A stretch of 64,000 nucleotides of DNA, taken from positions 2,976,001 through 3,040,000 of the forward strand of contig NZ_JARUBN010000001.1 of the NCBI RefSeq assembly GCF_029626265.1. The letters are read 5' to 3'. Made by a program: the position numbers and the translations under genes. This document shows, in pieces, positions 10,964-59,862 of this stretch. Each line of letters opens with the position of its first letter. The first letter of the stretch is position 1. The notes under the pieces are model-generated. The model was not told the DNA's origin, ran no database searches, and saw only the letters and a list, made by a program, of their open reading frames with translations. Source of the DNA: Micromonospora sp. WMMD1102. GTDB taxonomy: Bacteria; Actinomycetota; Actinomycetes; Mycobacteriales; Micromonosporaceae.

Positions 10964-11048
10964 GGCCCGACGGGTCGTGCCGGAGGGTCCGAGGGCCGTA
11001 CCGGAGACGGTTCGAGGGCCGAAGTGGAAGCTCGACGGGAGGACGGCG

Positions 11049-11834
11049 ATGACCACCGACCACATCCGCAGTGCCGGTCCCGACCTGCCGGCGGATCCGC
11101 CGGCCCGGTCCGGCGGGCTGGCGCTGCCCCGCTACCGGCACGACGACCCGGACACCCATCCGCCGATGCTCTTCCCCGACTACGGCTCGACCAGCCTGCG
11201 CGCCCCGAAGCAGCCGCTGGCCCTGCTGCCACAGCGGCTGACCGAGGTGACCGGACCACTGCTCGGCGAGGGTCGGCTCGGCGACCTGGACCACGACCTG
11301 ACCCGGCAGCATGCCGGAGAACCGCTGGGTCAGCGGATCATCGTGCACGGCCGGGTGCTGGACGGCAACGGCCGGCCGGTGCCGGACACCCTGGTGGAGA
11401 TCTGGCAGCCGAACGCCGCCGGCCGGTACCGGCACGCGCTCGACAACTGGCCGGCGCCGCTGGACCCGAACTTCACCGGCGTGGGCCGGACCCTGACCGA
11501 CGCCGACGGGCGCTACCGGTTCGTCACCGTGCAGCCGGGCGCCTATCCCTGGCGCAACCACCCCAACGCCTGGCGGCCGGCGCACATCCACTTCTCCCTC
11601 TTCGGCAGGGCCTTCACCCAGCGGCTGGTCACCCAGATGTACTTCCCGGGCGACCCGCTCTTCTTCCAGGACCCGATCTTCAACTCGGTCCGCGACCCGC
11701 TGGCCCGGGACCGGCTGATCTCCCGCTACGACCACTCGGTCACCGAGCCGGAGTGGGCGCTCGGCTTCGAGTTCGACGTGGTGCTGCGCGGCCGGGACGC
11801 GACCCCCTTCGAGGACGGCGACGACGATGACTGA
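11049..11834 (+). CDS. pcaH: Protocatechuate 3,4-dioxygenase beta subunit
   Basis: The 261 aa iron-binding subunit of the intradiol ring-cleavage enzyme that opens protocatechuate to 3-carboxy-cis,cis-muconate. The Fe(III) ligands are visible: a Tyr in AAGRYRHALDNW, then Tyr and two His in GAYPWRNHPNAWRPAHIHFS. The N-terminal part (LPRYRHDDPDTHPPMLFPDY) is typical of PcaH. ATG 11049 has GGGAGGA at 11037-11043. It overlaps pcaG by 8 bp, giving coupled synthesis of the two subunits. Confidence 0.95.
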   Translation: MTTDHIRSAGPDLPADPPARSGGLALPRYRHDDPDTHPPMLFPDYGSTSLRAPKQPLALLPQRLTEVTGPLLGEGRLGDLDHDLTRQHAGEPLGQRIIVHGRVLDGNGRPVPDTLVEIWQPNAAGRYRHALDNWPAPLDPNFTGVGRTLTDADGRYRFVTVQPGAYPWRNHPNAWRPAHIHFSLFGRAFTQRLVTQMYFPGDPLFFQDPIFNSVRDPLARDRLISRYDHSVTEPEWALGFEFDVVLRGRDATPFEDGDDDD

Positions 11835-36189: not shown

Positions 36190-36232
36190 CGTCCTGCCGT
36201 GGCGGCAGGCCCGCATCCCGCCGGAGGTGGCG

Positions 36233-37585
36233 ATGATGAACCGAGCACGCAACCGATTCCGATGGCTGTCATCAGCCTCCGCCGCGCTGCTGCTGGCCGG
36301 GTCGGTCGTACCGGCGGCTCCGGCCGAGGCCGCCGCACCGCCGCCCGGCCAGACCACCCGCTACACCATGACCGCGTTCACCAACAGCAGCGAATCCAAC
36401 ATGTACGTCTACGAGTCGCCGGACGCCACCGGCTTCCGCCTGCTGCGCGGCCCGGCCTACACCCCACCGTCCGGGCTGATCCGGGACCCGAGCATCATCC
36501 GGCACACCGACGGTCGGTACCACATCGTCTACACCACCAACTGGACCGGGAACACCATCGGCTTCGCCACCAGCACCGACCGGGTCAACTGGACGTTTCT
36601 GCGCAACCACACCATCCCGTTGACGGTGCAGAACACCTGGGCGCCGGAGTGGTTTGTCGACACCGACGGCAGCGTCAACGTCATCGTCTCGCTTTCCACC
36701 AATGGGGCGGACTTCAAGCCGTACCGGCTCCGGGCGACAAACGCCGCGCTCACCGCGTTCAGCGCACCGACCGTGCTGAGCGGGATCGGGCCGAACTACA
36801 TCGACACGTTCATCGTCAAGACCAGCGGGACATACCACGCGTTCACCAAGCAGGAGACGACCAAGTTCGTCGAGTACGCGACGGCGACCAGCCTGACAGG
36901 GCCGTACACGGTGCGGCGCACCGGCAACTGGGCCGGCTGGGGCGGCCCGCGCGAGGGTCAGGCGCTGGTGCAGTTGGACAACGGCGGCTGGCGGATCTTC
37001 TTCGACGGCTACACCGCCGGCCAGTACCTGTTCAGCGACAGCTACGACGGCTTCAACACCTGGACCGCCCCGACCCAGCTACCCGGGCTCTCCGGCTTTG
37101 CCCGACATTTCACCGTGCTCAAGGAGACGGTGTCCGGCGGGGTTACCCTCCCGGTCAACGCCATCCGGTCGTTCCAGTCGGTGAACTTTCCGGACCGGTA
37201 CGTCCGGCACCGCGACTACCTCGGATACGTCGAGCCGGTCTCCGGGGCGAGCCCGGCGCAGACCAGGCAGGACGCCACCTTCACCGTTGTCGCCGGCCTG
37301 GCCGACCCGAACTGCTACTCCTTCACCGGGGCCGGCGGCCGCTACCTGCGGCACTACGACTACAGGCTGCGCTTGGACCCGAGCGACGGCACGGCGACCT
37401 TCCGCGGCGACGCCACCTTCTGCGCCCGACCCGGTTCGGTGGCCGGTTCGGTCGCCCTGGAGTCTTACAACCATCCGGGCCGGTACCTGCGGCACTACAA
37501 CTACGAACTCCGAATCGACTGGTATGCCGACAACGCCACCTTCCGGGCGGACAGTTCGTTCCGCCCGACTACCCCGTGGGCCTGA
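36233..37585 (+). CDS. Secreted GH43-type arabinosidase with AbfB (CBM42) domain
   Basis: A 450 aa exported protein. A Sec signal ends near AEAAAPP. A five-blade GH43-like propeller (about 45-290) has the base aspartate in GLIRDPSIIRHTDGRYHIVY, a second acid in GPNYIDTFIVK and the putative general acid in GGPREGQALVQ. The C-terminal AbfB domain (about 300-450) has the repeated F/Y-Q-S-x-N-x-P-x-R-Y-x-R-H pattern (SFQSVNFPDRYVRHRDYLGY, SYNHPGRYLRHYNYELR) that binds arabinofuranose side chains. GGAGG at 36223 supports ATG 36233. It would release arabinose for the importer at 20408. Confidence 0.85.
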   Translation: MMNRARNRFRWLSSASAALLLAGSVVPAAPAEAAAPPPGQTTRYTMTAFTNSSESNMYVYESPDATGFRLLRGPAYTPPSGLIRDPSIIRHTDGRYHIVYTTNWTGNTIGFATSTDRVNWTFLRNHTIPLTVQNTWAPEWFVDTDGSVNVIVSLSTNGADFKPYRLRATNAALTAFSAPTVLSGIGPNYIDTFIVKTSGTYHAFTKQETTKFVEYATATSLTGPYTVRRTGNWAGWGGPREGQALVQLDNGGWRIFFDGYTAGQYLFSDSYDGFNTWTAPTQLPGLSGFARHFTVLKETVSGGVTLPVNAIRSFQSVNFPDRYVRHRDYLGYVEPVSGASPAQTRQDATFTVVAGLADPNCYSFTGAGGRYLRHYDYRLRLDPSDGTATFRGDATFCARPGSVAGSVALESYNHPGRYLRHYNYELRIDWYADNATFRADSSFRPTTPWA

Positions 37586-39036: not shown

Positions 39037-39603
39037 ATGCTCAGACGTCACCTGCTCCGGGCCGCGCTCGGCCTGCTGACCCTGGCCACCTCGCTGGTCG
39101 GGGTCCAGGTCGCCACCGCTGCGGCCACCGCAGCGCCCGCGGTGCGCACGGTCTACTACGACGCGAGCCGGGCCGGGGAGTTCACCACCAACTTCACCCA
39201 GGCCGCACAGATCTGGAACAGCAGGGTCGGCAACGTGCGGCTGGTGGCCGGTACGCCGGCGTCGGTGACCATCCACGTCGACAGCGGCTGGCCCCGGGCG
39301 TACGTCACCGGCCTCGGCTCCGGCCGGGTCTACATGGGTTGGCAGGCCGTGAACCAGGGCTACGACCGTACCCGGATCGCGACCCACGAACTCGGGCACA
39401 TCCTCGGGCTGCCGGACCGGCGTACCGGCCTCTGTTCGGATCTGATGTCCGGCAGCAGCGCACCGGTCTCCTGCCGCAACGCGTACCCGAGCGCGGCCGA
39501 GGCGGCCCAGGTCGACCAGCTCTTCGCCGGCGGCCTCGCCGCCGCGTACTCCGGAGCTCCGGCGGCGGCCGTGACCGGCACGTACGTCTGGACCACCAGC
39601 TGA
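39037..39603 (+). CDS. Snapalysin-family secreted metalloprotease (M7)
   Basis: A 188 aa secreted zinc protease. A signal peptide (MLRRHLLRAALGLLTLATSL...) is followed by the mature domain from about residue 35 (VRTVYYDASRAGEFTTNFTQ). The zinc site is HELGHILGLPD near residue 118, the extended metzincin-like motif with Asp as third ligand typical of M7 snapalysins. The length is usual for the family. An AGGAG ribosome site precedes the ATG. Confidence 0.92.
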   Translation: MLRRHLLRAALGLLTLATSLVGVQVATAAATAAPAVRTVYYDASRAGEFTTNFTQAAQIWNSRVGNVRLVAGTPASVTIHVDSGWPRAYVTGLGSGRVYMGWQAVNQGYDRTRIATHELGHILGLPDRRTGLCSDLMSGSSAPVSCRNAYPSAAEAAQVDQLFAGGLAAAYSGAPAAAVTGTYVWTTS

Positions 39604-39844: not shown

Positions 39845-41206
39845 GTGGGTTCGCACGGGTCGGCGCTGGCTGTCCCGCCAGGCCGGTTGACCGTTCCGCC
39901 GCAACCCCGCCCGCCGGACATGCTGCGCCGGATGACCACACCGCTGCGACGCACGCCCGGCCGGTTCACCGCCATCCTGGCCGGTGTGGTCGTGCTCGGA
40001 CTGCTCACCGGCATCGTCGCGTTCGTCGGCGTACGCCAGCGGGCCGACCTGGTGCGCGGCGTCACCGCCCGCAGTGGCGAGTTGGCGGTGGCGGCGCAGA
40101 GCCTCTACCGGGCGCTCTCCGACGCCGACGCCACCGCCGCGAGCGCCTTCCTCTCCAACGGTCTCGAACCGCCCGCGCTGCGGGACCGCTACCAGCGCGA
40201 CCTCGCCGACGCCGCCTCGGCGCTGACGGTCGTCTCGGCGGCGGTCTCCGACGACAGCCGAGGCGCGGCGGCGGTGGCCCGGATCACCGCCCGGCTGCCG
40301 GTCTACAGCGGCCTGGTGGAGACCGCCCGGACCTACAACCGGCAGGGTCTGCCACTCGGCGTCGCCTACCTCCAGGAGGCCTCCGGCCTGATGCGCGACG
40401 AGTTGCTGCCCGCGGCGCAGGAGCTCTACGCGACGGCGTCGACCGAACTGGACGAGGCGCGGGACCGGGCGGCCGGCTTCCCGTGGGTCGCGGTGCTGCT
40501 GGCCGTGCTGACCCTGGCGGCGCTGGTGCTCACCCAGTTGCACCTGACCCGGCGTACCAACCGGCTGCTGAACGTCGGGCTGCTGGTCGCCACCGGCGCG
40601 ACGGTGCTGCTGGTGGCCTGGCTGACCGGTTCGGCACTCGTCGCCGCCGGCGACCTGCGGGACAGCCGGGACTCCGGATCCGCCCAGGTCAACCTGCTGG
40701 CCGAGGCGCGGATCGCCGGGTTGCAGGCCCGCGCCGACGAGGCGCTGACCCTGGTCGCCCGGGGCAACGGCGCGGCGTTCGAGGAGAACTACGGCGTCGT
40801 GATGGAGCGGCTCGCCGGCGCGGACGGCTCGGGCGGGCTGCTGGCGCAGGCCCGGGCGGCGGCTCCGGACGACACCACGCGGCAGGCGGTCGAGGCCGCC
40901 ATCGCACGCAGCAAGGAGTGGTCGGCCGCGCACCGCAACGTGCGGACCCTCGACGACAGCGGCGAGTACGCCAAGGCGGTGGCCGCCACGGTGGGCACCG
41001 GGGAGCAGACCACCGCCGCCATCTTCAACCAGTTCGACGAGGCGCTCGCCCTGGCCATCGCGCACAACGGAGAGCGGTTCGAACGCGAGGCGGTCGGCGC
41101 GGGCCGGGCCCTGACCGGCGTCGACGTCGGTATCGTCGGACTGAGCCTCGTCCTGCTGGTCGGGGCAACGGTGGGCATGCAGCGGCGGATTGTGGAGTAT
41201 CGATGA
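39845..41206 (+). CDS. glnX: GlnX-like integral membrane protein
   Basis: A 453 aa protein with four predicted helices (about 40-62, 212-232, 241-268 and 426-446). They enclose two extracytoplasmic helical domains of about 150 residues each (LADAASALTVVSAAVSDDSR..., LAEARIAGLQARADEALTLV...). The topology, size and position before glnH and pknG match mycobacterial GlnX, which passes the GlnH ligand signal to PknG. GTG 39845 with GGGGAGG at 39832 is chosen; ATG 39920 is possible. It overlaps glnH by 4 bp. Confidence 0.85.
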   Translation: MGSHGSALAVPPGRLTVPPQPRPPDMLRRMTTPLRRTPGRFTAILAGVVVLGLLTGIVAFVGVRQRADLVRGVTARSGELAVAAQSLYRALSDADATAASAFLSNGLEPPALRDRYQRDLADAASALTVVSAAVSDDSRGAAAVARITARLPVYSGLVETARTYNRQGLPLGVAYLQEASGLMRDELLPAAQELYATASTELDEARDRAAGFPWVAVLLAVLTLAALVLTQLHLTRRTNRLLNVGLLVATGATVLLVAWLTGSALVAAGDLRDSRDSGSAQVNLLAEARIAGLQARADEALTLVARGNGAAFEENYGVVMERLAGADGSGGLLAQARAAAPDDTTRQAVEAAIARSKEWSAAHRNVRTLDDSGEYAKAVAATVGTGEQTTAAIFNQFDEALALAIAHNGERFEREAVGAGRALTGVDVGIVGLSLVLLVGATVGMQRRIVEYR

Positions 41207-42201
41207 GACACCGGCATCTCGCCGGCCGGGTCCTTGCCGGCGCACTCGCGGTGGCGGCGGTGGCCACGCTGGCTCTCGCCGGCTGCGGCACGGACGAGCA
41301 GGCGCTTCCCGACAACCAGATGGCCGCCGACCCGCCCCGGCCGGTCGGCATGCAGGATCCGGCCGTCGTCCCGACCGGTCCGGCCGCCTCGTCCGGCTCG
41401 TGCAACCCCCGGGCCAGCCTGCGGCCACCCGCGACGCTGCCGCGGCCCCGGCAGATGCCGTCCGGCAGCGCGATGGCCAGGATCGTCCAACGCGGACGGT
41501 TGATCGTCGGGGTCGACCAGAACAACTACCAGTTCGGCTTCCGTGATCCGTTGACCGGCCAGCTCACCGGCTTCGACGTCGACATCGCCCGGGAGATCGC
41601 CCGGGGCCTCTTCGGCGACCCGGGCCGGATCCAGTTCCGGGCGATCAGCTCGGCCGACCGGATCAAGGTGGTCAAGGACGGCACCGTCGACATGGTGGTC
41701 CGGACCATGACGATGAACTGCGAACGCTGGCAGGAGGTCAACTTCTCCACCGAGTACTTCAACGCTGGGCAGCGGGTGCTGGTCACCCGGGGTTCCGGGG
41801 TGCAGGACATCGACGACCTGCGCGGCAAGAAGGTCTGCGCCGCGGCCGGCAGCACCTCGATCCGGAACATCGCGGAGAGGGGGACGGTGCCGGTCTCGGT
41901 GGTCAACTGGACCGACTGCCTCGTGCTGTTGCAGCAGAACCAGGTCGTCGCGGTCTCGACCGACGACAGCATCCTGGTCGGGCTCGCCGCCCAGGACCCG
42001 AACACCGAGGTCGTCGGCCCGCGGTTCAGCGACGAGCCGTACGGGGTGGCGATCTCCCGCGACTCGCCGGAGCTGGTCCGGTTCGTCAACGGCGTACTGG
42101 CCAAGATCCGTTCCGACGGGACCTGGACCCGGCTCTACAGCCGATGGCTGACGTCGCTGGGCCCGGCGCCGGCGCCACCGGCCGCGCGTTACCGGGACTA
42201 G
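41203..42201 (+). CDS. glnH: GlnH-like amino-acid binding lipoprotein
   Basis: A 332 aa lipoprotein (lipobox LAGC, Cys28). After a Pro-rich spacer comes a type-3 solute-binding domain: RGRLIVGVDQNNYQFGFRDP, GFDVDIAREIARGLFGD, VDMVVRTMTMNCERWQEVNF and DLRGKKVCAAAGSTSIRN. Mycobacterial GlnH binds Asp, Asn, Glu or Gln. No ABC permease or ATPase is present, so it should act as a sensor with GlnX and not as a transporter subunit. Confidence 0.9.
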   Translation: MRHRHLAGRVLAGALAVAAVATLALAGCGTDEQALPDNQMAADPPRPVGMQDPAVVPTGPAASSGSCNPRASLRPPATLPRPRQMPSGSAMARIVQRGRLIVGVDQNNYQFGFRDPLTGQLTGFDVDIAREIARGLFGDPGRIQFRAISSADRIKVVKDGTVDMVVRTMTMNCERWQEVNFSTEYFNAGQRVLVTRGSGVQDIDDLRGKKVCAAAGSTSIRNIAERGTVPVSVVNWTDCLVLLQQNQVVAVSTDDSILVGLAAQDPNTEVVGPRFSDEPYGVAISRDSPELVRFVNGVLAKIRSDGTWTRLYSRWLTSLGPAPAPPAARYRD

Positions 42202-42202
42202 C

Positions 42203-43762
42203 GTGTCTCGTGGACCTTCCGGCGCAGTGGCGGAACACCGGCGGCCAGCGTTCGGCGCCGGCCGACGGTCCGGGCTCCGGCCAGCCGCGTCGATGACCTT
42301 CCCGTCGCCGCCACCAATGGGTCGAGCCGAGGTCGACCGGGTGCTCGACGCGCTCGGTGCGGCGCACAACCGCGCCTCGGCGGCAATGTACGCCCTGGAC
42401 AGTCGGCCCGAGTCTGCCCTGCTGCGGGCCACCCGGCTCACCGGCGAGACCGCCCGGTTCGCCGCCGTCACTCACGCCCGGACCGGGGCGCTCTGGTCCC
42501 AGTTCGCCGCCTTCGGAGCCCTGCTCGGCCAGGCCCGCGAGGTTCGTGCCCGCCGTGCCCGCCCCGGCGACACCGAACTCGCCGAACTCGCCCACCTGCT
42601 CGGTGCGCCGGTGGTCGCGCTCGACGCCGACGGAGTGGTCGCGCTCGACGCCGACGGATCGGTGCTGGACGATCCCGCCGTCGGCGGGTCGGCGCTGGAG
42701 CTTCCAGGCGTCGGCGGGTCGGTGCTGGATGGCCGGGCTGTCCGCGGGTCGATGCCGGGAGGTTCGGCCGGTGGCGGGTCGGTACCGGGCAGTCTGGCCG
42801 CCGTTCCGGCCGAGCGGATCGGGTTGACCGAGCTGGCCCGGCGGATCGAGGCGGAGGCGAACGCGCTCGCCGGCACGCTCGGCGAGCTGGAAGCCGCGCG
42901 GGCCCGACTGGCCGGACAGTTCGGACGGCTCACCGAGGCGCTGCGACGGCTGCGGACGGACGGGCTCGACGGGGTCGAGGGACTCGACGGGTCTGACGGG
43001 TTCGACGGGTCTGACCGGCTCGACCGGTCTGACGGGCTCGACCCACCCGGCGAACCCGATCGGCTCGGCCGGCTTGCTGGGGCGGTCGAGGAGGCGTACA
43101 CGGATGCGCTCGCCGATCCGCTCGGCGCGGCCGGGAACGGACCGGTCGCAACCGCCGTCCGGGACCGGCTGCGGCGTTTCGAGGCCGAGGTCGCCGCCCT
43201 GACCTCCGAGCTTGCCGAACTGGTCGCACTGCGCACCGGCTACCCCGGGCGGACGGCGCGACTGGCGGCCGACCTGGACGAGCTCGCTGCGGCGGCGGCC
43301 GAGACCTCCCGCGTGCACGGACTCGCGCAGGTCAAGATCGCCAACTCCGGGCTGCCCGAACTGCCGCCGAATCCGACTCCGGCGTTGCGGGCCCAGCTCG
43401 CCCAACTCGGCCAGCTGCACCGGGAGCACCGGTGGAGTCAGGTCGGCACCGAGCTGGCCGCGCTCGAACGTGGCGTCGTGTCCGCCCGGCAGCGGCTGGC
43501 GGAGTCGCACGAGGCGGCGGACGGGCTGTTGCGCCGCCGTGCCGAGCTTCGAGGTCGGCTCGACGCGTACCGGGCCAAGGCGGGTCGACTCGGCCTGATC
43601 GAGCACACCGAACTGTCCGCCCGACACCGCCTGGCCCGCGACCTGCTCTACACCAGCCCGTGCGACCTGCCGGCGGCGACCCGGGCGGTGGTCGCGTACC
43701 AGCGTCATCTCAACGACCTCACCGGGCGGCCCGCGCCCGGTGCGAAGGGAGCCCCAGCATGA
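42203..43762 (+). CDS. Helical protein of unknown function between glnH and pknG
   Basis: About 519 aa, mostly charged helix with heptad character (LAGTLGELEAARARLAGQFG, FEAEVAALTSELAELVALRT, LAADLDELAAAAAETSRVHG). Two low-complexity inserts interrupt it: residues about 145-195 (GSVLDDPAVGG-type) and 253-282 (DGLDGVEGLDGSDGFDGS). There is no signal peptide or membrane helix. I do not recognise a family. GTG 42203 directly follows the glnH stop; ATG 42293 may be the true start, as the first 30 residues look non-conserved. It overlaps pknG by 4 bp, so it is probably a component or scaffold of the PknG system. Confidence 0.75.
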   Translation: MSRGPSGAVAEHRRPAFGAGRRSGLRPAASMTFPSPPPMGRAEVDRVLDALGAAHNRASAAMYALDSRPESALLRATRLTGETARFAAVTHARTGALWSQFAAFGALLGQAREVRARRARPGDTELAELAHLLGAPVVALDADGVVALDADGSVLDDPAVGGSALELPGVGGSVLDGRAVRGSMPGGSAGGGSVPGSLAAVPAERIGLTELARRIEAEANALAGTLGELEAARARLAGQFGRLTEALRRLRTDGLDGVEGLDGSDGFDGSDRLDRSDGLDPPGEPDRLGRLAGAVEEAYTDALADPLGAAGNGPVATAVRDRLRRFEAEVAALTSELAELVALRTGYPGRTARLAADLDELAAAAAETSRVHGLAQVKIANSGLPELPPNPTPALRAQLAQLGQLHREHRWSQVGTELAALERGVVSARQRLAESHEAADGLLRRRAELRGRLDAYRAKAGRLGLIEHTELSARHRLARDLLYTSPCDLPAATRAVVAYQRHLNDLTGRPAPGAKGAPA

Positions 43763-46326
43763 GCACCCGCTGCCTGCGGCCCGGTTGCCCAGGCTCCTAC
43801 CTGCCCGACGGCTACTGCGACGAGTGTGGTCGGCGGGCCCCGGCCGGCTCGACGGCGGTGCCCGGGAACACCGGCTCGACGGCTACCGACCCGGGCACGT
43901 CGGCGGGTACGGGCACGGGTTCGGTCGGGCCTACCGGTGGGACCGGCCGGGCCGGGGCGCCCACCGGTACGGGGCGGGCCTCGGTGCCGACCGGAACCGG
44001 CCGGGCCTCGGTGCCCGCCCAGGGCGGTACGCCGGGCAGCCAGCCGCCGGTTCCGTCCGCACCGGGGGCGGGACCGGCGTCGTCCGGTACCGGACAGGGC
44101 CCGGGGCCGACCTCGACCGGACAGGCTCCGGCGTCGACCGGTACCGGACGCGGTGGCGCGTCGACCGGGGTCGGCACCATGCCCAGCCGGGGGACGACGA
44201 GTTCCTCCCGGGGTTCCAGCCGGTCCCGGAGTGCCTCCCGGGGCGGTCTCGGCGCCGGGCTGGTCGACATCGCCCGGGTGCCGCTGCGCGATCCGGGGAC
44301 GGCGGTGATGGCCGAGCCGAGGGTCGCCGAGTCCCGACGGTACTGCGTGCGCTGTGAAAAGCCGGTGGGGCGGAGCCGGGACGACCGGCCGGGCCTGGCC
44401 GAGGGCTTCTGCCCGCACTGCGGTACCCCGTTCTCCTTCCTGCCCCGGCTCCAACCCGGCGACCTGATCAACCGGCGGTACGAGATCCTCGGCGCCCTCG
44501 CCTACGGCGGACTCGGCTGGATCTACCTGGCCCGGGACCGCAACGTCAGTGACACGGTCAGCGACCGCTGGGTGGTACTCAAAGGATTGATCAACACCTC
44601 CGACGAGGACGCGATGGCCTCGGCCGTCGCCGAGCGCCGGTTCCTGGTCGAGCTGGACCACCCCAACATCGTCAAGATCCACGACTTCGTCGAGCATCCC
44701 GACCCGCGCACCGGCACCCCCGTCGGCTACATCGTGATGGAGTACGTCGGCGGCCAGTCGCTGCGGGACATGCTGATGGCCCGGCGCCGGGAGACGGGCC
44801 AGCGTGCCCTGCCGCTGCCCGAGGTGATCGCCTACGGGGTCGAGATCCTGCCCGCACTCGACTACCTGCACGACCGCAACCTGCTCTTCTGCGACTTCAA
44901 GCCGGACAACGTCATCCACGCCGAGGAGCAGCTCAAACTCATCGACCTGGGCGCGGTACGGCACGTCGACGACAGCGCGAGCGCGATCTTCGGCACACCC
45001 GGCTACCAGGCGCCGGAGATCGGCACGCTCGGCCCCTCGGTCGCCTCCGACATCTACACCGTTGGCCGGGCGCTGGCCGTGCTCAGCATCGACTTCCGCG
45101 GCTTCTCCAGCACGTACGCCAACCGGTTGCCGGAGCCGGCCGAGGTGCCGCTGTTCGCCGCCGAGATGTCGTACCACCGGCTGCTGCGCCGGGCCACCCA
45201 CCCCGATCCGGACCGCCGCTTCGCCAGTGCCGCGGAGATGAGCGAGCAACTGCTCGGCGTACTGCGCGAGGTGCTCTCCGCCGCCGACGGGGTACCCCGA
45301 CCGGCGGTGTCCCGGCAGTTCACCCCGGAACGGCGTGCTTTCGGCACCGAGGCCGGCGAGGTCGGCCGGGCGGTGGCGGGCCGGGCCTGGGGCGCGGGCG
45401 GCGGGATACCGCCCGGGGCGACCGCACCGGCGCCGCAGGTGGTCGCCGCCGCGCTGCCGCTGCCGCAGGTCGACGTGCTCGATCCGGGCGCCGGCTTCCT
45501 CGCCTCGCTCGGCGCGACCGACCCGGCCGAACTGGTCCGGCAGCTCACCGCCGCACCGGTACGCAGTGTCGAGGTGGCGCTGCGGCTGGCCCGGGCCCGG
45601 ATCGAGGCCGGTGACCTGGCCGGAGCCGCCGCCGACCTGGACCGGCTGGCCGCGGCCGACCCGTTCGACTGGCGGGTGGACTGGTACCGGGGCCTGGCTG
45701 CGCTGACCGCGAACCGTCCCGGTGACGCCCGGGTCGCCTTCGACGCCGTCTACGACGCCCTGCCGGGCGAGCCGGCCGCCCGGCTGGCGCTGGCGGTCAG
45801 CGCGGAGTGCACCGGCGACCGGGAGCTGGCGACCCGGCTCTACGACCGGGTGTGGCGGGTCGACCACAGCTATCTGAGTGCCGCGTTCGGGCTGGCCCGG
45901 ATCCGGTTCCTGATCGGCGACCGGGTGGGTGCGCTGGCCGTACTCGACCAGGTGCCGGACAGTTCGAGTCAGCACGTGGCGGCGCAGGTCGCCGCCGTCC
46001 GGGCCAGCCTGCCGGGACTGGCGGCCGGCACGACCGGGCCGGACGACCTGCTGCGGGCGTCCGCCCGGCTGGAGCGGCTCGGCCTCGACGTCGAGCGGCA
46101 GACCCGGCTCACCATCGAGGTGCTGGAGGTCGCCCTGGCCTGGGTACGGAGCCGGTCGGCAGCGACCTCCGCAGCACGGTTGCTGGGGCACGAACTCTCC
46201 GAGCGCGGGTTGCGGTTCGGGCTGGAGCGGGCGTACCGGACGCTGGCCCAGCTCTCCCGTGACCCGGAGTTGCGGATCGCGCTCGTCGACCACGCCAACG
46301 CGGTCCGGCCGAGGACGTTGGTGTGA
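43759..46326 (+). CDS. pknG: Serine/threonine protein kinase PknG
   Basis: An 855 aa soluble kinase. An extra N-terminal zinc ribbon has Cys5, 10, 20 and 23 (CLRPGCPG, CDEC). A Thr/Gly/Ser-rich disordered linker (27-170) leads to the PknG rubredoxin-like domain (Cys196, 199, 218, 221). The kinase domain starts near residue 238 (RYEILGALAYGGLGWIYLAR) with VVLKGLI, LLFCDFKPDNVIH in place of HRD, LIDLGAV and APEIG. A TPR domain follows. This is the diagnostic PknG layout; M. tuberculosis PknG has 750 aa. PknG phosphorylates FHA proteins of the GarA/OdhI type to steer glutamate metabolism. Confidence 0.96.
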   Translation: MSTRCLRPGCPGSYLPDGYCDECGRRAPAGSTAVPGNTGSTATDPGTSAGTGTGSVGPTGGTGRAGAPTGTGRASVPTGTGRASVPAQGGTPGSQPPVPSAPGAGPASSGTGQGPGPTSTGQAPASTGTGRGGASTGVGTMPSRGTTSSSRGSSRSRSASRGGLGAGLVDIARVPLRDPGTAVMAEPRVAESRRYCVRCEKPVGRSRDDRPGLAEGFCPHCGTPFSFLPRLQPGDLINRRYEILGALAYGGLGWIYLARDRNVSDTVSDRWVVLKGLINTSDEDAMASAVAERRFLVELDHPNIVKIHDFVEHPDPRTGTPVGYIVMEYVGGQSLRDMLMARRRETGQRALPLPEVIAYGVEILPALDYLHDRNLLFCDFKPDNVIHAEEQLKLIDLGAVRHVDDSASAIFGTPGYQAPEIGTLGPSVASDIYTVGRALAVLSIDFRGFSSTYANRLPEPAEVPLFAAEMSYHRLLRRATHPDPDRRFASAAEMSEQLLGVLREVLSAADGVPRPAVSRQFTPERRAFGTEAGEVGRAVAGRAWGAGGGIPPGATAPAPQVVAAALPLPQVDVLDPGAGFLASLGATDPAELVRQLTAAPVRSVEVALRLARARIEAGDLAGAAADLDRLAAADPFDWRVDWYRGLAALTANRPGDARVAFDAVYDALPGEPAARLALAVSAECTGDRELATRLYDRVWRVDHSYLSAAFGLARIRFLIGDRVGALAVLDQVPDSSSQHVAAQVAAVRASLPGLAAGTTGPDDLLRASARLERLGLDVERQTRLTIEVLEVALAWVRSRSAATSAARLLGHELSERGLRFGLERAYRTLAQLSRDPELRIALVDHANAVRPRTLV

Positions 46327-48044
46327 CCGCCGTCGGAGCCGGCGCCGCCGGCAGCCTGCCGAAGCCGTGTCCGGAACACGGCGCACCCGACGACCCGGCA
46401 CACCGGTACTGCGAGTTCTGCGGTCGGGAGTTGGAACGCCTGCCGATGGCGGATCCGGCCGGGCCGTCCGGGGCGTCCGGTACGCGAACTCCGGTGGACC
46501 CGTCGAGGGCGGCTACCGCCGCCGGCTCCGCCCGGGTCGAGACGCCTGCCGCCGTGGACCTGCCGGAGTCGACCGAGCTGCTGCGGCTGGCCGACCTGTC
46601 GGGGCCGACCGCGCTGTCCCGGTTGGAGGCACTCGCCGGCTCCGCCGATTCGTCCGGCCCGCCTCCGGCCGCATCGCCCGGTTGGCCGCAGCCCTCCGCA
46701 CCGCCCGGCTCGGCCAACTGGATGCCGCCGCCGGCACCACCCGCCTCGACCGGTCGGGCCGGCCCGCCAGCCGTGCCGGCCTCCTCCGGCTGGACCGGGC
46801 CGCCGGCAACCTCCGGCCCACCGGGATGGCACGGCTCGCCCGTACCGTCCGGCCCGCCGGGCTGGAGCGGCCCGTCGGTACCGTCGGCTCCGCCCGTACC
46901 GTCCGGCCCGCCGGGCTGGAGCGGTCCGCCGGTACCGTCGGCTCCGCCCGTACCGTCCGGCCCGCCGGGCTGGAGCGGTCCGCCGGTACCGTCGGCTCCG
47001 CCCGTACCGTCCGGCCCGCCGGGCTGGAGCGGTCCGCCGGTACCGTCGGCTCCGCCTGCGCCGGCGGGGCCGGCCGGGGGGTGGCATGCGGCCGTGTCGA
47101 CCAGCGGTGCGGTCGTCGGCGCCGGACCGGTGAATCCGTCCGGTCCGGTCGCCCCGCCCGGTCCCTGGCTCTCGTCGCGTGCGGTGGGCCAGCCCTGTCC
47201 GGGGTGCGGCGCCTCGCCGTCCGGCAGCTCCGGCCATTGTGACCACTGTGGACAACGGTCGTCGGTGGGTCGGGACCGCGCCGATCTGGACCTGGGGGCC
47301 GTCGCCGCCGTCACCGACCGGGCTCGGCGGCGCCGCAACGAGGACGCGGTCACGGTCGGCCGGTTCGGCCGGGGCATCGCGGCGGTGGTCTGTGACGGGG
47401 TGTCGACATCGCTCCGCGCCGACCTCGCGGCGCACGCGGCGGCGGAGGCGGGACTGGCCGCACTGCTCTCCGCACTCGGCAACGGCGCCACCGGCCCGGA
47501 CGCCGTGCTCTCCTCCGGCCGGGCGGCGGCCACCGCCGCCCGGGCGACCGCGCTGCACGACGACGGGCAGGTTCCACCCAGCTGCACCTTCGTGGCCGCG
47601 GTCGTCAGCGCCGACTCGGTCACGGTCGGCTGGATCGGTGACAGCCGCGCCTACTGGCTCGGTCCGGACGGTGCGGTGCACGAGGCGGTTTGCCTCACCG
47701 TGGACGACTCGGTGGTCGGCCAGATCCGGGCGGGCCGGCCGGTGCCACCCGGTGCCGAGCAGGATCCGACGTCCAAGGCGCTGATCCGGTGGCTCGGCGC
47801 CGACTCCGGCGACGCCGATCCGCAGGTGGTGACGTTCCAGCCGGGCCGGTCGGGGCGGCTGGTGATCTGTTCGGACGGGCTCTCGCACTACCTGCCCAAC
47901 GCCGGGGCGCTGGCGGCGCGGGTGCCGGGACCGGGCGGTGCCACGCCGATCGCGATCGCCAAGGATCTGACCAGGTTCGCTGTGGAGGCCGGCGGGCACG
48001 ACAACATCGCCGTCGCGGTGCTGCCGTTCCCACCGGCCGGATGA
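46323..48044 (+). CDS. PP2C/PPM-type protein phosphatase with zinc ribbons
   Basis: A 573 aa protein. An N-terminal zinc ribbon (PCPEHG...YCEFCG) is followed by a long Pro/Ser/Gly linker with 18-residue repeats, then a second ribbon (CPGCG...CDHCG, about 298-316). The phosphatase domain starts near residue 330: TDRARRRRNEDAVTVGRFG, AAVVCDGVSTS with the metal aspartate, WIGDSRAYWLG, ICSDGLSHYL and GGHDNIAVAVL. All PPM metal motifs are present. GTG 46323 overlaps the pknG stop, so kinase and opposing phosphatase are co-translated. Confidence 0.93.
   Translation: MTAVGAGAAGSLPKPCPEHGAPDDPAHRYCEFCGRELERLPMADPAGPSGASGTRTPVDPSRAATAAGSARVETPAAVDLPESTELLRLADLSGPTALSRLEALAGSADSSGPPPAASPGWPQPSAPPGSANWMPPPAPPASTGRAGPPAVPASSGWTGPPATSGPPGWHGSPVPSGPPGWSGPSVPSAPPVPSGPPGWSGPPVPSAPPVPSGPPGWSGPPVPSAPPVPSGPPGWSGPPVPSAPPAPAGPAGGWHAAVSTSGAVVGAGPVNPSGPVAPPGPWLSSRAVGQPCPGCGASPSGSSGHCDHCGQRSSVGRDRADLDLGAVAAVTDRARRRRNEDAVTVGRFGRGIAAVVCDGVSTSLRADLAAHAAAEAGLAALLSALGNGATGPDAVLSSGRAAATAARATALHDDGQVPPSCTFVAAVVSADSVTVGWIGDSRAYWLGPDGAVHEAVCLTVDDSVVGQIRAGRPVPPGAEQDPTSKALIRWLGADSGDADPQVVTFQPGRSGRLVICSDGLSHYLPNAGALAARVPGPGGATPIAIAKDLTRFAVEAGGHDNIAVAVLPFPPAG
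46848..47063 (+). repeat. Four 54 bp tandem repeats in the phosphatase linker
   Basis: Four in-frame copies of a 54 bp unit start at 46848, 46902, 46956 and 47010. They encode SGPPGWSGPPVPSAPPVP with small changes in the first and last copies. The middle copies are identical or nearly so at DNA level, which suggests recent slippage. The unit gives a flexible Pro/Trp-containing linker. Confidence 0.9.
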
Positions 48045-49354
48045 TCGCCGGGAGCGGGCGGATGGCCGGGATGGCACGGTTCGTCGCCGAGGTGGACCAC
48101 AACGAGTACCTGCCGGCCGGCGGTCAGGTGGTGGACGCGATCCTGACGGTGACGGCGTCCGGGCCCGACCTGCGCGATCCGGCCGCCGCCCCGACGGCGG
48201 CACAGGTGATCATGATCGACACCTCGGGTTCGATGGCGATGCCACCGACGAAGCTCGCCGAGGCGAAACGGGCCACCGCGGTCGCCATCGACACGCTGCG
48301 CGAGGGTGTGGCCTTCGCGGTGGTCTCCGGCACCGCGGTCGCCCGGATGGTGTACCCGGCACATCCGGCGATGGTGCCGGCGAACGCGCAGACCCGGGCG
48401 GCGGCGAAGGCGGCGGTCGCCGGGCTCTGGGCCGACGGCGGCACCGCCATCGGCCGCTGGCTGGACTTGGCGAACTGGCTCTTCGCCAGTTGTCCCACCG
48501 AGGTCCGACACGCAATCCTGCTCACCGACGGACGCAACGAGCACGAGCGACCCGAGGATCTGCGCCGGGTGCTCGCCGCCTGCGAGGGGCGGTTCGTCTG
48601 CGACAGCCGGGGCATCGGCAACGGATGGGTGGCCGGCGAACTGCGTACCATCGCCTCGGCCCTGCTCGGCACGGCCGACGGTCTGGAACACCCGGCGCAG
48701 TTGCCGGCCGCCTTCCAGGCGATGACGGCGGCCGCGATGGGCAAGCGGGTCGCCGACGTCGCGCTGCGGATCTGGACTCCGGCCGGTGCGACGGTACGGA
48801 TGGTCAAGCAGGTCTTTCCGCACGTGGCGGAACTCACCGGCCGCCGCTCGACGGTCAGTGCCCGGATCGGGGACTATCCGACCGGCGCCTGGGGTGCCGA
48901 GACGCGCGAATTCCACATCGGTGTGGTCCTGCGCCCCGACGCGGTCGGTGAGGAGGTGCTGGCTGCCCGGGTCAGCCTGGTCAGCGCCGGTCAGGTCCTG
49001 ACCGAGCGGCTGATCCCGGCCAGGTGGACCGACGACACCGCGCTCTCCACCCGGATCAGTCCGCAGGTGGCGCACTACACCGGGCAGGCCGAACTCGCCG
49101 CCGCGATCCAGGAAGGGCTGCGGGCCCGGGAGGCCGGCGACGAGGAGACCGCGACCGCCCGGCTCGGCCGGGCCGTGCAGTTGGCGGCCGAGTCGGGACA
49201 CGACGAGACCGCGATGCTGCTCGGCCGGGTCGTCGACGTCATCGACGCCCCGACCGGAACGGTACGGCTGAAGCGGCAGGTGTCGGCGCTGGACGCCGAG
49301 CTGACCGACGTGCGGTCGGTGAAGACGGTACGGGTGAAGAAGGAGCAGGAGTGA
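48041..49354 (+). CDS. VWA domain protein of the PknG locus
   Basis: A 437 aa cytoplasmic protein. The von Willebrand A domain has a complete MIDAS: VIMIDTSGSMAMPP near residue 64, ADGGTAIGRWLD and AILLTDGRNEHE. After it come a beta-rich part (IGDYPTGAWGAETREFHIGV) and a helical C-terminus (AAIQEGLRAREAGDEETATA...). ATG 48041 overlaps the phosphatase stop by 4 bp; ATG 48071, after GGGAG, is an alternative. VWA, PP2C and kinase genes together recall the TerY-P triads described in bacterial stress systems. Confidence 0.9.
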   Translation: MIAGSGRMAGMARFVAEVDHNEYLPAGGQVVDAILTVTASGPDLRDPAAAPTAAQVIMIDTSGSMAMPPTKLAEAKRATAVAIDTLREGVAFAVVSGTAVARMVYPAHPAMVPANAQTRAAAKAAVAGLWADGGTAIGRWLDLANWLFASCPTEVRHAILLTDGRNEHERPEDLRRVLAACEGRFVCDSRGIGNGWVAGELRTIASALLGTADGLEHPAQLPAAFQAMTAAAMGKRVADVALRIWTPAGATVRMVKQVFPHVAELTGRRSTVSARIGDYPTGAWGAETREFHIGVVLRPDAVGEEVLAARVSLVSAGQVLTERLIPARWTDDTALSTRISPQVAHYTGQAELAAAIQEGLRAREAGDEETATARLGRAVQLAAESGHDETAMLLGRVVDVIDAPTGTVRLKRQVSALDAELTDVRSVKTVRVKKEQE

Positions 49355-49358
49355 GCCG

Positions 49359-50153
49359 GTGACCTGCTCCCGGGGGCACGAGTCGTCCACAACGGACTAC
49401 TGCGACGTCTGCGGCGTACCGATGCAGGGTGACCGTGCCGGGTCCGGGTCGAAGGAAGCCGGGGGAGCGCACCCGGGCCCGGAGGCCGGGGTGGCAGTTC
49501 CGTGTCCGGTCTGCGGTACCGCGCGGGTGGGCCGGTTCTGCGAGGAGGACGGCTACGACTTCCTGCTGACCCCGCCGACCCCCGCCGCCCCGACCCCTGG
49601 CGCCCCGACCCCCGCCGCCCCGACCCCTGGCGCCCCGGCCCCCGCTGCCCCGACCCCTGGCGCCCCGGCCCCCGCTGCCCCGACCCCTGCCGCCCCGGCC
49701 CCCGCTGCCCCGACCCCTGCCGCCCCGACGGCCGCCGCTGCGGAGCGGAGCTGGCAACTGGTGGTGGACGCGGACGCCGGCTACTTCGACCTGGTCAGGT
49801 CGTTCGGCGGGGCGGAGGCGGGGAGCCTGGCCTTCCCACGCTTCGTGGTGGCACGGCGGTTCACCCTGGAACCCCGGCAGATGCTGGTCGGCCGCCGCAG
49901 CCGCTCCCGGGGCGTACGTCCCGACATCGACCTGACCGGGCCGCCCGAGGACCCGGGCGTCTCCCACCTGCATGCGCTGCTGGTCCCGCAGCCCGACGGC
50001 TGGGCGGTGGTGGACCTGGGATCCGCCAACGGCACCTACCTGAACGACCCCTCGACGCCACCGATCGTCGCCGCCACGCCGGTCCCGCTCGGCGACGGTG
50101 ACCGGGTCTACCTCGGTGCCTGGACCCGGTTGACGATCCGAGCCGACGGCTGA
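49359..50153 (+). CDS. FHA domain protein with zinc ribbons
   Basis: A 264 aa protein, the last gene of the operon. It has two cysteine clusters (CSRGH...YCDVCG and CPVCG...FCEEDGYDF), a linker of Pro-Ala/Thr repeats (73-122) and a C-terminal FHA domain: MLVGRRSRSRGVRPDIDL, VSHLHALLV, WAVVDLGSANGTYLND and GDRVYLG. The R, S-x-x-H and NGT phosphothreonine-binding residues are present. By analogy with GarA/OdhI it is a candidate substrate or reader of PknG phosphorylation, though it lacks the N-terminal ETTS-type tail I would expect in GarA. Confidence 0.92.
   Translation: MTCSRGHESSTTDYCDVCGVPMQGDRAGSGSKEAGGAHPGPEAGVAVPCPVCGTARVGRFCEEDGYDFLLTPPTPAAPTPGAPTPAAPTPGAPAPAAPTPGAPAPAAPTPAAPAPAAPTPAAPTAAAAERSWQLVVDADAGYFDLVRSFGGAEAGSLAFPRFVVARRFTLEPRQMLVGRRSRSRGVRPDIDLTGPPEDPGVSHLHALLVPQPDGWAVVDLGSANGTYLNDPSTPPIVAATPVPLGDGDRVYLGAWTRLTIRADG
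49575..49724 (+). repeat. Five 30 bp tandem repeats in the FHA protein
   Basis: Five in-frame 30 bp units encode the decapeptide P-(T/A)-P-A-A-P-T-P-(G/A)-A, forming a stiff Pro-rich spacer between the zinc ribbons and the FHA domain. Copies differ at one to three bases each. Linker length is likely to vary between strains. Confidence 0.88.
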
Positions 50154-57947: not shown

Positions 57948-58125
57948 AGATACCAATCAATCGATGGCGACGTCGGCGCCCCGCCGGGGTCCGCCCGGCC
58001 GCTCCGGCGGCCGTGCGGCTTGTGCCCGCCACCGGGTGAGCAGCCCTGGTCCCCGCTGTCCGGCAAGCGTTTGCCGGGGGCCACGTTCTCTGTCGATCAA
58101 CCCACCATCGTTCGGAGGACCAGCA

Positions 58126-59862
58126 ATGCACTTACATCGTCCCCGGTCCCGGTTGTGGTCAGCCGTGACCGTGGCAGCCGTGGTCGTCGCCAGCGGCGCG
58201 GCTGTCACCCTCGCCGGGCCCGCGGCCGCAGCCGCGGGCTGCGGCGTCACCTACACGGTCGGCTCGCAGTGGTCAGGCGGCTTCACCGCGGCGGTCACCG
58301 TCACCAACGTCGGTGACCCGGTCAGCTCCTGGACGTTGACCTGGAGCTACGAGGCGGGCCAGCGGGTCACCCAGGCCTGGAACGCCACCGTGACGCAGAG
58401 CGGCAGCCAGATCAGCGCCAGGAACGCCAGCTACAACGGCAGCATCGCCACCGGAGCGAGCGTCTCCTTCGGCTTCAACGGATCATGGAACGGCAGCAAT
58501 CCGGCGCCGACCAGCTTCGCCGTGAACGGCACCACCTGCACCGGAGCTCCGGGCCCCAACCCCACGACCGGACCGACGTCCCAGCCGACGACGCAGCCCA
58601 CCGCGCCGCCGACCACCGCGCCGCCCGGCAACCCGACCTGGGGCACCGCCGTGCCGCCGGCCGGCGCCCAGCTGAGCCGGGCGTACCAGTTGATCGCGAC
58701 CGCCAACGAGAAGGGATACCTGCCGAGGTCCGGCGAGTGCTCCGTCGAGATCCACGCCCGTTACTGGACGTACGGCCCCGACGGCAAGGTCTACCCGACC
58801 TGGCACCCGACCCGGGACTCCAGTGGCTGCTACTTCGGCCACGAGCACGGTGACGACCCCCGGCCGTCCGACCTGTACAGCACCGTCGGCTGGCCGGCGT
58901 TCGGCTACACCAGCGAGGTGATGCTGGACAACATGCCCGAGCACAGTCACCGGCACGAGGACCACGTCGGGCACAAGGTGCTGGCCGTCAACAACACCAA
59001 CGTGATCCAGGGTGACAACGGCAGCAGCTTCTTCCCGCCGCAGGGCACCACGATCGCGGTCTGTGACACCCTGCTCAAGTTCCACCAGGGCACCCACTCG
59101 CCGGACGCGTTCAGCAACAACGTCCACGAGTTGCTCTTCAACCAGCGCTGCACCGCGAGCAACGGTGGCCAGGTCACCGAGGCCCGCTACAGCGCGATGA
59201 TCCCGCTCGGCCGGGCCGGCGGCTTCAGCCCGAGCGAATGCCCGGGCTTCGGCGGCGCGTTCATCAACGTGGCGCCGCCGGTGCCGGGAGACTCGCCGTC
59301 GGACACCCGGTCGCTGGGCCGGCTGATCACCGAGCCGGGCTGTGTGCAGGCGATCCGCGAGGGTCGTACGCACTACGACCCGCTCTATCCGAGCCCGGTG
59401 CCGTTCACCGTCTCCGACATGGACGACTTCTGGTTCTCCGACCACTCGGTGACGGGCAGCGGGCTGAACTTCCGGCTCGCACCGCTGTTCTACGTGGTGA
59501 ACCCGTCGCGCTACTACGATCCGACCAAGCCGAACAGCCTGGGCCGGATCATCGACCTGTGCTACACCAACCTTGCCGGCGGGGACTACTGCAACCAGGC
59601 CCGGCAGGCCGGCCAGAACATCCCCTGGGACGACACCCGCTCGCCGTTCAAGGGCACCCTGCGGGAGTTCCGGCCGGGCACCTTCCAGGTGCAGAACAGC
59701 GGCTCGACAACGGTCCACACCGACGTGTACGGCCGCAACGCCTCCAGTACGCCGTTCGCCGGCTCGATCCGGCAGTACTTCTCCGGCAACCAGTCGTCGA
59801 CCATGTACGTCCGTGGTGCCACCCGCGACTGGAACGCCACCGGGGTACACGCCCCGAACTGA
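58126..59862 (+). CDS. Secreted CBM2 protein with large His-rich domain of unknown function
   Basis: A 578 aa exported protein. Signal peptide to about residue 35; CBM2 cellulose-binding module (about 36-138: CGVTYTVGSQWSGGFTAAVT, VSSWTLTWSYEAGQRVTQAW); Thr/Pro linker (140-170). Then comes a 400-residue domain with conserved-looking His/Asp/Cys clusters: CYFGHEHGDDPRPSD, PEHSHRHEDHVGHKVLAVNN, LKFHQGTHSPDAFSNN and MDDFWFSDHSVTGSG. I do not recognise this domain. The histidines suggest a metal-dependent extracellular enzyme (inference). GGAGGA at 58114 supports ATG 58126. Confidence 0.82.
   Translation: MHLHRPRSRLWSAVTVAAVVVASGAAVTLAGPAAAAAGCGVTYTVGSQWSGGFTAAVTVTNVGDPVSSWTLTWSYEAGQRVTQAWNATVTQSGSQISARNASYNGSIATGASVSFGFNGSWNGSNPAPTSFAVNGTTCTGAPGPNPTTGPTSQPTTQPTAPPTTAPPGNPTWGTAVPPAGAQLSRAYQLIATANEKGYLPRSGECSVEIHARYWTYGPDGKVYPTWHPTRDSSGCYFGHEHGDDPRPSDLYSTVGWPAFGYTSEVMLDNMPEHSHRHEDHVGHKVLAVNNTNVIQGDNGSSFFPPQGTTIAVCDTLLKFHQGTHSPDAFSNNVHELLFNQRCTASNGGQVTEARYSAMIPLGRAGGFSPSECPGFGGAFINVAPPVPGDSPSDTRSLGRLITEPGCVQAIREGRTHYDPLYPSPVPFTVSDMDDFWFSDHSVTGSGLNFRLAPLFYVVNPSRYYDPTKPNSLGRIIDLCYTNLAGGDYCNQARQAGQNIPWDDTRSPFKGTLREFRPGTFQVQNSGSTTVHTDVYGRNASSTPFAGSIRQYFSGNQSSTMYVRGATRDWNATGVHAPN

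Follow-up and report, generated by a model that had tools for sequence, protein, structure and literature searches.

PknG has been much studied, in mycobacteria and corynebacteria, and kinase, phosphatase, FHA and VWA elements occur together in the type VI secretion threonine-phosphorylation pathway PpkA-PppA-Fha. Here we describe a pknG operon of seven genes in a stretch of 64,000 nucleotides from Micromonospora sp. WMMD1102 (contig NZ_JARUBN010000001.1, positions 2,976,001 to 3,040,000), referred to below as the window. The GlnX-GlnH-PknG-GarA/OdhI system of mycobacteria and Corynebacterium likewise has glnX, glnH and pknG together and a GlnH with an Asp/Glu pocket (PMC6069109, PMC8546545, PMC9769921, PMC5448819), and mycobacterial PknG has the same rubredoxin-kinase-TPR architecture. 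The three-gene operon has been called conserved in Actinomycetales, on the basis of STRING (PMC6069109). PknG is reported to be the sole kinase acting at Thr21 of GarA, several others using Thr22 (PMC5448819), and the FHA substrate of corynebacterial and mycobacterial PknG is brought to the kinase by way of an N-terminal segment that PknG autophosphorylates (PMC8546545, in which the 17-mer SDEVTVETTSVFRADFL was used as a PknG substrate). TerY-P systems are defined by a TerY-like VWA protein, a PP2C and a kinase with a C-terminal zinc ribbon (PMC11090510); the kinase, PP2C and VWA theme is also found in the actinobacterial GAP1-N2 GTPase-centric conflict systems (PMC7159879), and PpkA consists of a kinase and a VWA domain (PMC1262709). 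In archaea, ArnB, a VWA protein, is phosphorylated in its C-terminal domain by the kinases ArnC and ArnD and is bound there by ArnA, an FHA protein with a zinc finger at its N-terminus; cells in rich medium show strong binding, which weakens when they starve (PMC6509490).

The window carries seven consecutive plus-strand genes (39920-50153) that overlap or abut, as read directly from the open reading frames and their junctions. This observation is confirmed: GlnX, GlnH, a helical protein, PknG, a PP2C phosphatase, a VWA protein and an FHA protein, the seven genes named in the original prediction, are all present, with identities from profile and structure matches, and the kinase writer, phosphatase eraser, phosphothreonine reader and metal ion-dependent adhesion site (MIDAS) residues that it described are intact. 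We read the locus as a complete GlnX-GlnH-PknG system whose four extra genes would form a PknG signalling block, and that block as the likely main PknG output in Micromonosporaceae, because GarA there has Val at the Thr21 position; we would give this reading a probability of a little under 0.6. The seven-gene operon is a fuller, conserved version of the known pathway, and the circuit built on it is one that we infer. The original prediction did not include the separate GarA gene without the PknG-specific Thr, the ribbons common to several of the proteins, the Thr tail of the VWA protein or the parallel with archaeal ArnA-ArnB.

Conservation of the operon and its parts

In the window, glnX, glnH and pknG lie in one gene run, with the helical open reading frame between glnH and pknG, and PknG has the rubredoxin, kinase and TPR domains with intact catalytic residues (from N to C terminus: zinc ribbon, Thr-rich linker, rubredoxin, kinase, TPR; 1.3e-160 against structure 2pzi). 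R147, T162 and W232 of Mycobacterium tuberculosis GlnH touch the Asp side chain (PMC6069109); by alignment mapping (offset 40) all three are identical in the window GlnH, as are R169 and D250, while S164 is replaced by Thr and K161 by Arg. Because these pocket residues are retained, the window GlnH, which matches the M. tuberculosis GlnH structure 6h2t at 318.7 bits (4.5e-94), should bind Asp/Glu. Judged by gene content, architecture and sensor pocket, the window set is a member of the GlnX-GlnH-PknG system, one whose genome has no GarA with the PknG acceptor Thr. It differs from the mycobacterial and corynebacterial systems in its added helical, PP2C, VWA and FHA genes, in the extra N-terminal ribbon on its PknG, and in that GarA in its family is mostly without the PknG-specific Thr.

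Genome families are given here by code, f1 being taken as Micromonosporaceae (the window's own family), f4 as Streptomycetaceae, and f2 as the mycobacterial family because of the three-gene operon and the GarA 17-mer SDEVTVETTSVFRADFL in three of the five f2 genomes read (L160, L161, L163). Genomes with a PknG_TPR (PF16918) match above the cut-off number 16 of 198 for the phylum, 60 of 121 for the own family and 77 of 246 for the class. The VWA family (E ≤ 1e-30) was found in 49 of the 246 class genomes and the helical family (E ≤ 1e-8) in 46, and every one of these genomes has PknG over the cut-off (hypergeometric co-occurrence 6e-32 and 2e-29, respectively, uncorrected for relatedness). In the reverse profile seven candidates per genome were scored, and its absences are less sure than its presences. 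All 19 f2 genomes have PknG, with the VWA and helical families both absent. Within 8 kb of a PknG match and on the same strand lay 55 of 64 VWA matches, always downstream, and 48 of 53 helical matches (58 rows minus five second fragments), always upstream; some of those away from PknG are at the ends of contigs or belong to second loci.

Gene order was compared at 100 hand-picked PknG neighbourhoods, second loci included, which together with the window make 101 loci scored for the seven families. All but L135 were ordered by match position, its helical and PknG matches falling in one open frame (the PknG_TPR search of class genomes does find PknG there); the sample is skewed to f1, which supplies 61 of the 100 ordered loci in addition to the window, and L060 and L061 are near-copies from one genome. 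The order glnX-glnH-hel-pknG-pp2c-vwa-fha is found at 43 of the 100 loci (33 f1, five f4, four f70 and the window). With VWA and helical families seen only in company with PknG, the conserved co-occurrence of the set that the original prediction had proposed as a test is borne out. All seven genes occur rearranged at six loci: five f69 loci read hel-pknG-pp2c-vwa-fha-glnX-glnH, the order of the five-gene block being intact and glnX-glnH standing at its other end, and at L158 (f39, outside the class) glnH and glnX stand on the strand opposite to the other five genes. The five-gene block and the glnX-glnH pair act as two modules. Other recurrent orders are glnX-glnH-pknG-pp2c-fha (seven loci), glnX-glnH-pknG-pp2c-vwa-fha with the helical gene below threshold (five), the mycobacterial glnX-glnH-pknG (six, all f2), and hel-pknG-vwa-glnX (six) and glnX-glnH-hel-pknG-vwa (four), which with a few similar loci we call type B; the remaining ordered loci show one- and two-member patterns. 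Among named loci longer than 19 kb, taken from the best 80 of 557 VWA-profile matches, 52 of 54 have all seven families; these are mainly from Streptomyces, with Actinomadura, Kibdelosporangium, Phytohabitans and others. Chosen by the VWA profile, these loci give no measure of VWA frequency, and their table, which puts the helical gene after PknG in 15 loci (probably a hit-midpoint artefact), was used for presence only. The seven-gene set is widespread, no oddity and, with 43 loci in one order, far from a product of chance.

Active-site residues are conserved throughout the loci. PknG has its Lys, Asp, Lys and Asn and the Asp of DLG at 100 of 100, PP2C its metal-site Asp/Gly/Asn positions at 70 of 70, and the VWA protein the MIDAS D, S, S, T and D at 78 of 78; in the FHA domain Gly, Arg, Ser and Asn are found in 71 of 71, His in 70 and the Gly after Asn in 68.

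Several divergent loci were met along the way. The window's own genome (G000) has a second system of type B, hel-pknG-vwa-glnX (C1:1536042-1542085, in L060); the 19-kb stretch that holds it yielded no PP2C, FHA or GlnH, and the VWA protein has a zinc ribbon at its end. L061 (G000 C4), a 20-kb contig, is a 99.99% copy of this locus with a 1.6-kb insertion (9952-11583) in the end of the VWA gene, which holds a transposase-like frame by eye and has an apparent 7-bp target repeat; the contig is an assembly variant or a second copy. At L179 (G453 C25, Streptomyces family) the operon is apparently decaying, its PknG, GlnX and GlnH matches being partial and its VWA match split. L173 and L174 are helical-kinase-PP2C-VWA-FHA sets whose kinase only partly matches the PknG profile; no PknG_TPR match is listed for their contigs in the class-genome search, and neither GlnX nor GlnH was found in the stretches fetched for L172-L175. 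The two kinases lie on the minus strand (L173 10908-12992, L174 10936-13074), and that of L173 has Ala in place of the catalytic-loop Lys (CDLAPGN) and is possibly a pseudokinase.

Candidate PknG outputs: GarA and the operon block

GarA, the expected PknG substrate, is encoded outside the window, by a canonical GarA/OdhI gene some 85 kb beyond it (G000 C1:3125475; 206.9 bits, cut-off 200), and the idea that the operon FHA protein is itself GarA was rejected on that ground. The GarA model matches 246 of 246 class genomes at E ≤ 0.001, only 26 of them over its cut-off, and the weak best matches may be other FHA proteins; in the own family a GarA-type match over 1e-40 is found in 120 of 121 genomes, 102 of them over the curated cut-off. 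The GarA of the window genome reads DVTST, with Val at the position of the PknG-specific Thr21 (the first Thr of ETTS), so the known PknG-GarA Thr21 step cannot operate here, while a step at the second Thr could. We read 50 of the 120 own-family GarA genomes (the 30 best scoring, including the window's own, and 20 chosen as PknG-bearing): the position holds Val in 48, Ala in one (G210) and Thr in one (G243), and Thr21 is absent in 38 of the 39 that bear PknG. Elsewhere it is Thr in 5/5 f2 and 4/4 f4 genomes (ETTS in the four Streptomyces-type), Gln in 2/2 f70, Ser, Thr, Val and Val in four f69, Ser in 4/4 f78, Ala in 2/2 f71, Thr in one f63 and Ala in one f80. Two aspects of these data tell against the operon block as the main output: the 11 own-family genomes without a PknG match also have Val, which makes the substitution family-wide and not PknG-linked, and GarA retains the second Thr of the motif, which PknG could use.

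In the circuit that we propose, GlnH would bind Asp/Glu outside the membrane, as its pocket suggests, GlnX would relay the signal across it, and PknG would respond via its TPR domain, as work by others in mycobacteria and corynebacteria supports. We infer that PknG acts on the operon's own proteins, the VWA and ribbon-bearing proteins being its probable substrates. The FHA domain would then dock on phosphothreonine in the VWA protein (its C-terminal part and Thr tail), in the N-terminal linker of PknG, or in both; by analogy with the recruitment described for mycobacteria and corynebacteria, it could dock on the PknG N-terminal segment in the same manner. Zinc ribbons and the coiled-coil protein may hold the complex together, and PP2C would reset the signal. 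Every protein-protein and phosphorylation step in this scheme is proposed from sequence, and the whole may represent the ArnA-ArnB arrangement of archaea in a bacterial form. A stronger version, in which PknG of Micromonosporaceae is uncoupled from GarA Thr21 and works through the VWA tail, FHA and PP2C instead, the mycobacterial operon being a remnant that retains only the GarA branch, we would advance tentatively, as the less probable side of an uneven bet. The missing GarA Thr makes it testable which targets PknG has besides GarA Thr21, and how its signal is terminated.

GarA could nevertheless be the sole real output: PknG would phosphorylate it at the Thr22 position or at a Thr nearby, and the other four proteins would do no more than tune or place the kinase. 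The nearly universal presence of GarA-type genes in the family would fit, as would the two Thr that DVTST retains and the ETTS of 4/4 Streptomyces-type GarAs, which come from genomes with PknG over the cut-off; but it is Thr21 that is reported as PknG's alone and Thr22 that several kinases use, and it is Thr21 that nearly all the PknG-bearing genomes read in the family have lost, so that we think this account unlikely. That the genes are simply co-inherited, with no physical circuit, is very improbable in our judgement, given that the exact order recurs in f1, f4 and f70, that all seven also occur in f69 and, outside the class, in f39, and that the block of five keeps its order at the five loci with glnX-glnH at the other end. 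Such clustering would account for operon genes being inherited together and for members singly missing in places, and the members are indeed separable, which also counts against our own reading: PknG, PP2C and FHA occur without VWA or helical genes at seven loci, and helical, PP2C and FHA genes without VWA at two.

The original prediction had likened the layout to TerY-P, and a likeness is all that it is. A VWA protein (here of the VWA_3/VWA_3_C type), a PP2C and a Ser/Thr kinase in one operon, with zinc ribbons, are common to both; the ribbons of the window kinase, however, are N-terminal and its C-terminus is TPR, and the window has in addition the rubredoxin domain, the FHA protein and the amino-acid sensor. 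GAP1-N2 systems similarly have an active kinase with a zinc ribbon, a PP2C and a standalone VWA protein in neighbouring genes, and the window differs from them in its PknG-type kinase, FHA protein and GlnX/GlnH input, with no GTPase among the window genes checked. These triads with ribbons, the ribbons in PknG, PP2C and FHA, and the existence of sensorless kinase-PP2C-VWA-FHA loci (L173, L174) could together point to a TerY-P-like metal or redox switch with borrowed GlnX/GlnH input, in which ribbons and rubredoxin sense and the output is stress response or defence. We hold this to be improbable: GlnX and/or GlnH are found at 95 of the 100 ordered loci, 0 of 13 other window genes checked with Pfam belongs to a known defence or restriction family, and PADLOC, a library whose coverage of TerY-P was not checked, matches the kinase alone (mostly PD-T4-6) and gives no TerY-P name among 25 of 30 families listed. 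In the type VI pathway the PpkA kinase is fused to VWA, whereas the window kinase and VWA are separate proteins; none of the window genes checked with Pfam and NCBIfam belongs to a secretion family, and the TagH model reached only 23.8 bits (cut-off 120).

Possible FHA-VWA docking, zinc ribbons and the direction of change

Like ArnA and ArnB, the window has a zinc-finger FHA protein and a candidate VWA partner in a setting of Ser/Thr kinases and, here probably, nutrient dependence. Its FHA protein has two N-terminal ribbon motifs, CSRGHESSTTDYCDVC and CPVCGTARVGRFCEEDG, the final Cys of the latter replaced, followed by a Pro/Ala linker and the FHA domain. Its VWA protein would comprise a VWA domain, a beta-sandwich and a C-terminal helix bundle by homology to 4fx5 (residues 4-424 of 427 aligned, 3e-123), a Catenulispora acidiphila protein whose three-part structure, ending in a four-helix bundle, is shared by the ArnB paralog vWA2 (3.75 A over 264 residues; PMC6509490). 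The ArnA finger is of RanBP2 type, unlike the window FHA ribbons, and all ArnB phosphosites identified to date are in the C-terminal domain, with peptides carrying ETTRR (PMC6509490); these archaeal sites lie in the helix bundle, whereas the window Thr tail (...DVRSVKTVRVKKEQE) is at the extreme C-terminus. Weighing against the parallel, the resemblance is one of structure (~20% identity between VWA domains), and pairwise Thr-to-Ala changes in ArnB left motility unaltered; loss of its whole C-terminal domain weakened ArnA binding, and only truncation of that domain altered motility (PMC6509490). PknG has 0 occurrences in the text of that paper available to us, and ArnA, ArnB and PknG were not found named together in the accessible parts of the literature searched. 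If the likeness is true, nutrient-controlled FHA-VWA docking would be common to two domains of life.

An FHA domain lies within 7 kb at 62 VWA loci: the VWA proteins of 54 match the strict Thr-tail pattern, those of the remaining eight show a looser run of Thr by eye, and none has a C-terminal ribbon; among the 16 without FHA, 12 VWAs have such a ribbon, four of them of the CPxCxTxRxGRFCExCxYD kind found in FHA proteins. As to the four that have neither ribbon nor local FHA, L061 is cut by its insertion, and L077, L090 and L129, which retain the tail, are from genomes with an FHA gene in another PknG locus. A trade-off of VWA tail and ribbon with FHA presence is suggestive only. In the VWA tree a single branch sets all 12 ribbon VWAs apart, so that statistically they count as one event, and in two of them something like the tail is retained (by pattern in L144, by eye in L136), both of which count against it; an independent-pairs test of FHA loss against VWA ribbon (four pairs, b differing in one) had no power. 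The Val shared by GarA (DVTST) and most own-family VWA tails (DVRS), with Thr in some other families, was not used as evidence, and the pairing is broken at at least six family loci (L070, L114, L117, L118, L119 and L159), where a Thr-type VWA tail goes with a Val GarA. The PknG linkers of the two forms cannot be told apart by their Thr content (per 140 aa, mean 9.9 in seven-gene loci, n = 53, versus 12.3 in mycobacterial ones, n = 6), which so lends no support to a docking role special to the seven-gene form.

Zinc ribbons are found in PknG, PP2C and FHA. The extra N-terminal PknG ribbon is seen at 18 of 28 loci printed and is missing from both f2 loci among them, the PP2C ribbon pattern is present in 70/70, and of the 62 FHA proteins at VWA loci, 50 have two ribbons and 59 at least one. 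At the nine FHA loci without VWA, seven FHA proteins, all from glnX-glnH-pknG-pp2c-fha loci, are without either pattern, the three printed showing one other ribbon by eye. Counts in the other proteins are 0/96 for GlnX, 1/86 for GlnH, 1/67 for the helical protein and 0/78 for VWA, the last confined to the profile match, beyond which the C-terminal ribbons lie. Ribbons are not operon-specific, which weakens the case: GarA has one at its N-terminus in 18/18 rows outside f1 and f2 (by eye). In those GarA loci (L267-L276, L279-L286) it stands before an ETTS-type motif; the five f2 rows and the printed f1 rows are without it.

The original prediction took the M. tuberculosis set to be extended here, which appears to be the wrong way round. 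In a tree of 68 PknGs (a quick method with Shimodaira-Hasegawa-like approximate likelihood ratio supports alone and flags on long branches; L136, L142 and L144 were set as root), the seven f2 PknGs group together (100) inside a 59-row clade (99), within its 38-row part (94), and so nest inside the seven-gene clade under the chosen outgroup root. The nine type B kinases all fall outside the 59-row clade; helical and VWA genes are both present at six of these loci, VWA alone at two and neither at one (L142). On the simplest reading, which rests on the chosen root, mycobacteria would have lost the helical, PP2C, VWA and FHA genes, and the three-gene operon would be a reduced form. If so, components of the pathway have gone unnoticed in those actinomycetes, Streptomyces included, that have the full set: its own phosphatase, FHA reader, VWA protein and coiled-coil protein. 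In the literature that we could consult, pknG is nowhere described next to a helical, PP2C, VWA or FHA gene, and the earlier statement that the VWA and helical proteins have no described role in PknG signalling agrees with what we found there.

Operon layout and neighbouring genes

The gene coordinates are collected in Table 1.

Table 1. Genes of the pknG operon in window coordinates, with the profile matches that identify them
Gene or product	Position	Strand	Length	Matches
glnX, membrane signal transducer	39920..41206	+	428 aa	NF058618 420 bits (cut-off 250)
glnH, solute-binding lipoprotein	41203..42201	+	332 aa	SBP_bac_3 105.6 bits
helical, coiled-coil-type protein	42203..43762	+	519 aa from GTG 42203; 489 aa from ATG 42293	
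pknG	43759..46326	+	855 aa	PknG_rubred, Pkinase, PknG_TPR
PP2C phosphatase	46323..48044	+	573 aa	PP2C_2 38.8 bits (cut-off 24)
VWA protein	48041..49354	+	437 aa from ATG 48041; 427 aa from ATG 48071	VWA_3, VWA_3_C
FHA protein	49359..50153	+	264 aa	FHA 45.9 bits (cut-off 20.7)

Four-nucleotide overlaps join glnX to glnH (ATGA at 41203), the helical gene to pknG (at 43759), pknG to the PP2C gene (GTGA at 46323) and, provided that the VWA start is 48041, PP2C to VWA. The first possible start of the helical gene follows the glnH stop at 42201 directly, at 42203, and the FHA start at 49359 follows the VWA stop at 49354. The operon start first given, 39845, is 75 nt 5' of the preferred glnX ATG and in the same frame. 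A promoter scan found 0 promoter-like sites where 0.1 were expected by shuffling.

Against the narrower equivalog NF041460, GlnX scores 214.9 bits, below the cut-off of 780. The lipobox of GlnH reads LALAGC. No family in the Pfam and NCBIfam searches matches the helical protein over cut-off; NCBI calls one homologue a 'coiled-coil domain-containing protein', and the PDB matches of the window protein are weak, to long-helix and coiled-coil chains (top 23.3 bits, 7jqe). PP2C begins with zinc-ribbon motifs followed by a Pro-rich linker, and the VWA protein is 92% identical to that of Plantactinospora endophytica (Micromonosporaceae).

Upstream of the operon lie an M7 peptidase gene (39037-39603) and a LacI-type regulator on the opposite strand, and downstream an Xaa-Pro peptidase with a signal-peptide-like start by eye; the latter was rejected as an operon member, its likely start near 50455 leaving a gap of ~300 nt. 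An AbfB (arabinofuranosidase B)-domain gene and a CBM_2 protein lie around the operon (36227-37585 and 57964-59862), which suggests plant-polymer use nearby.

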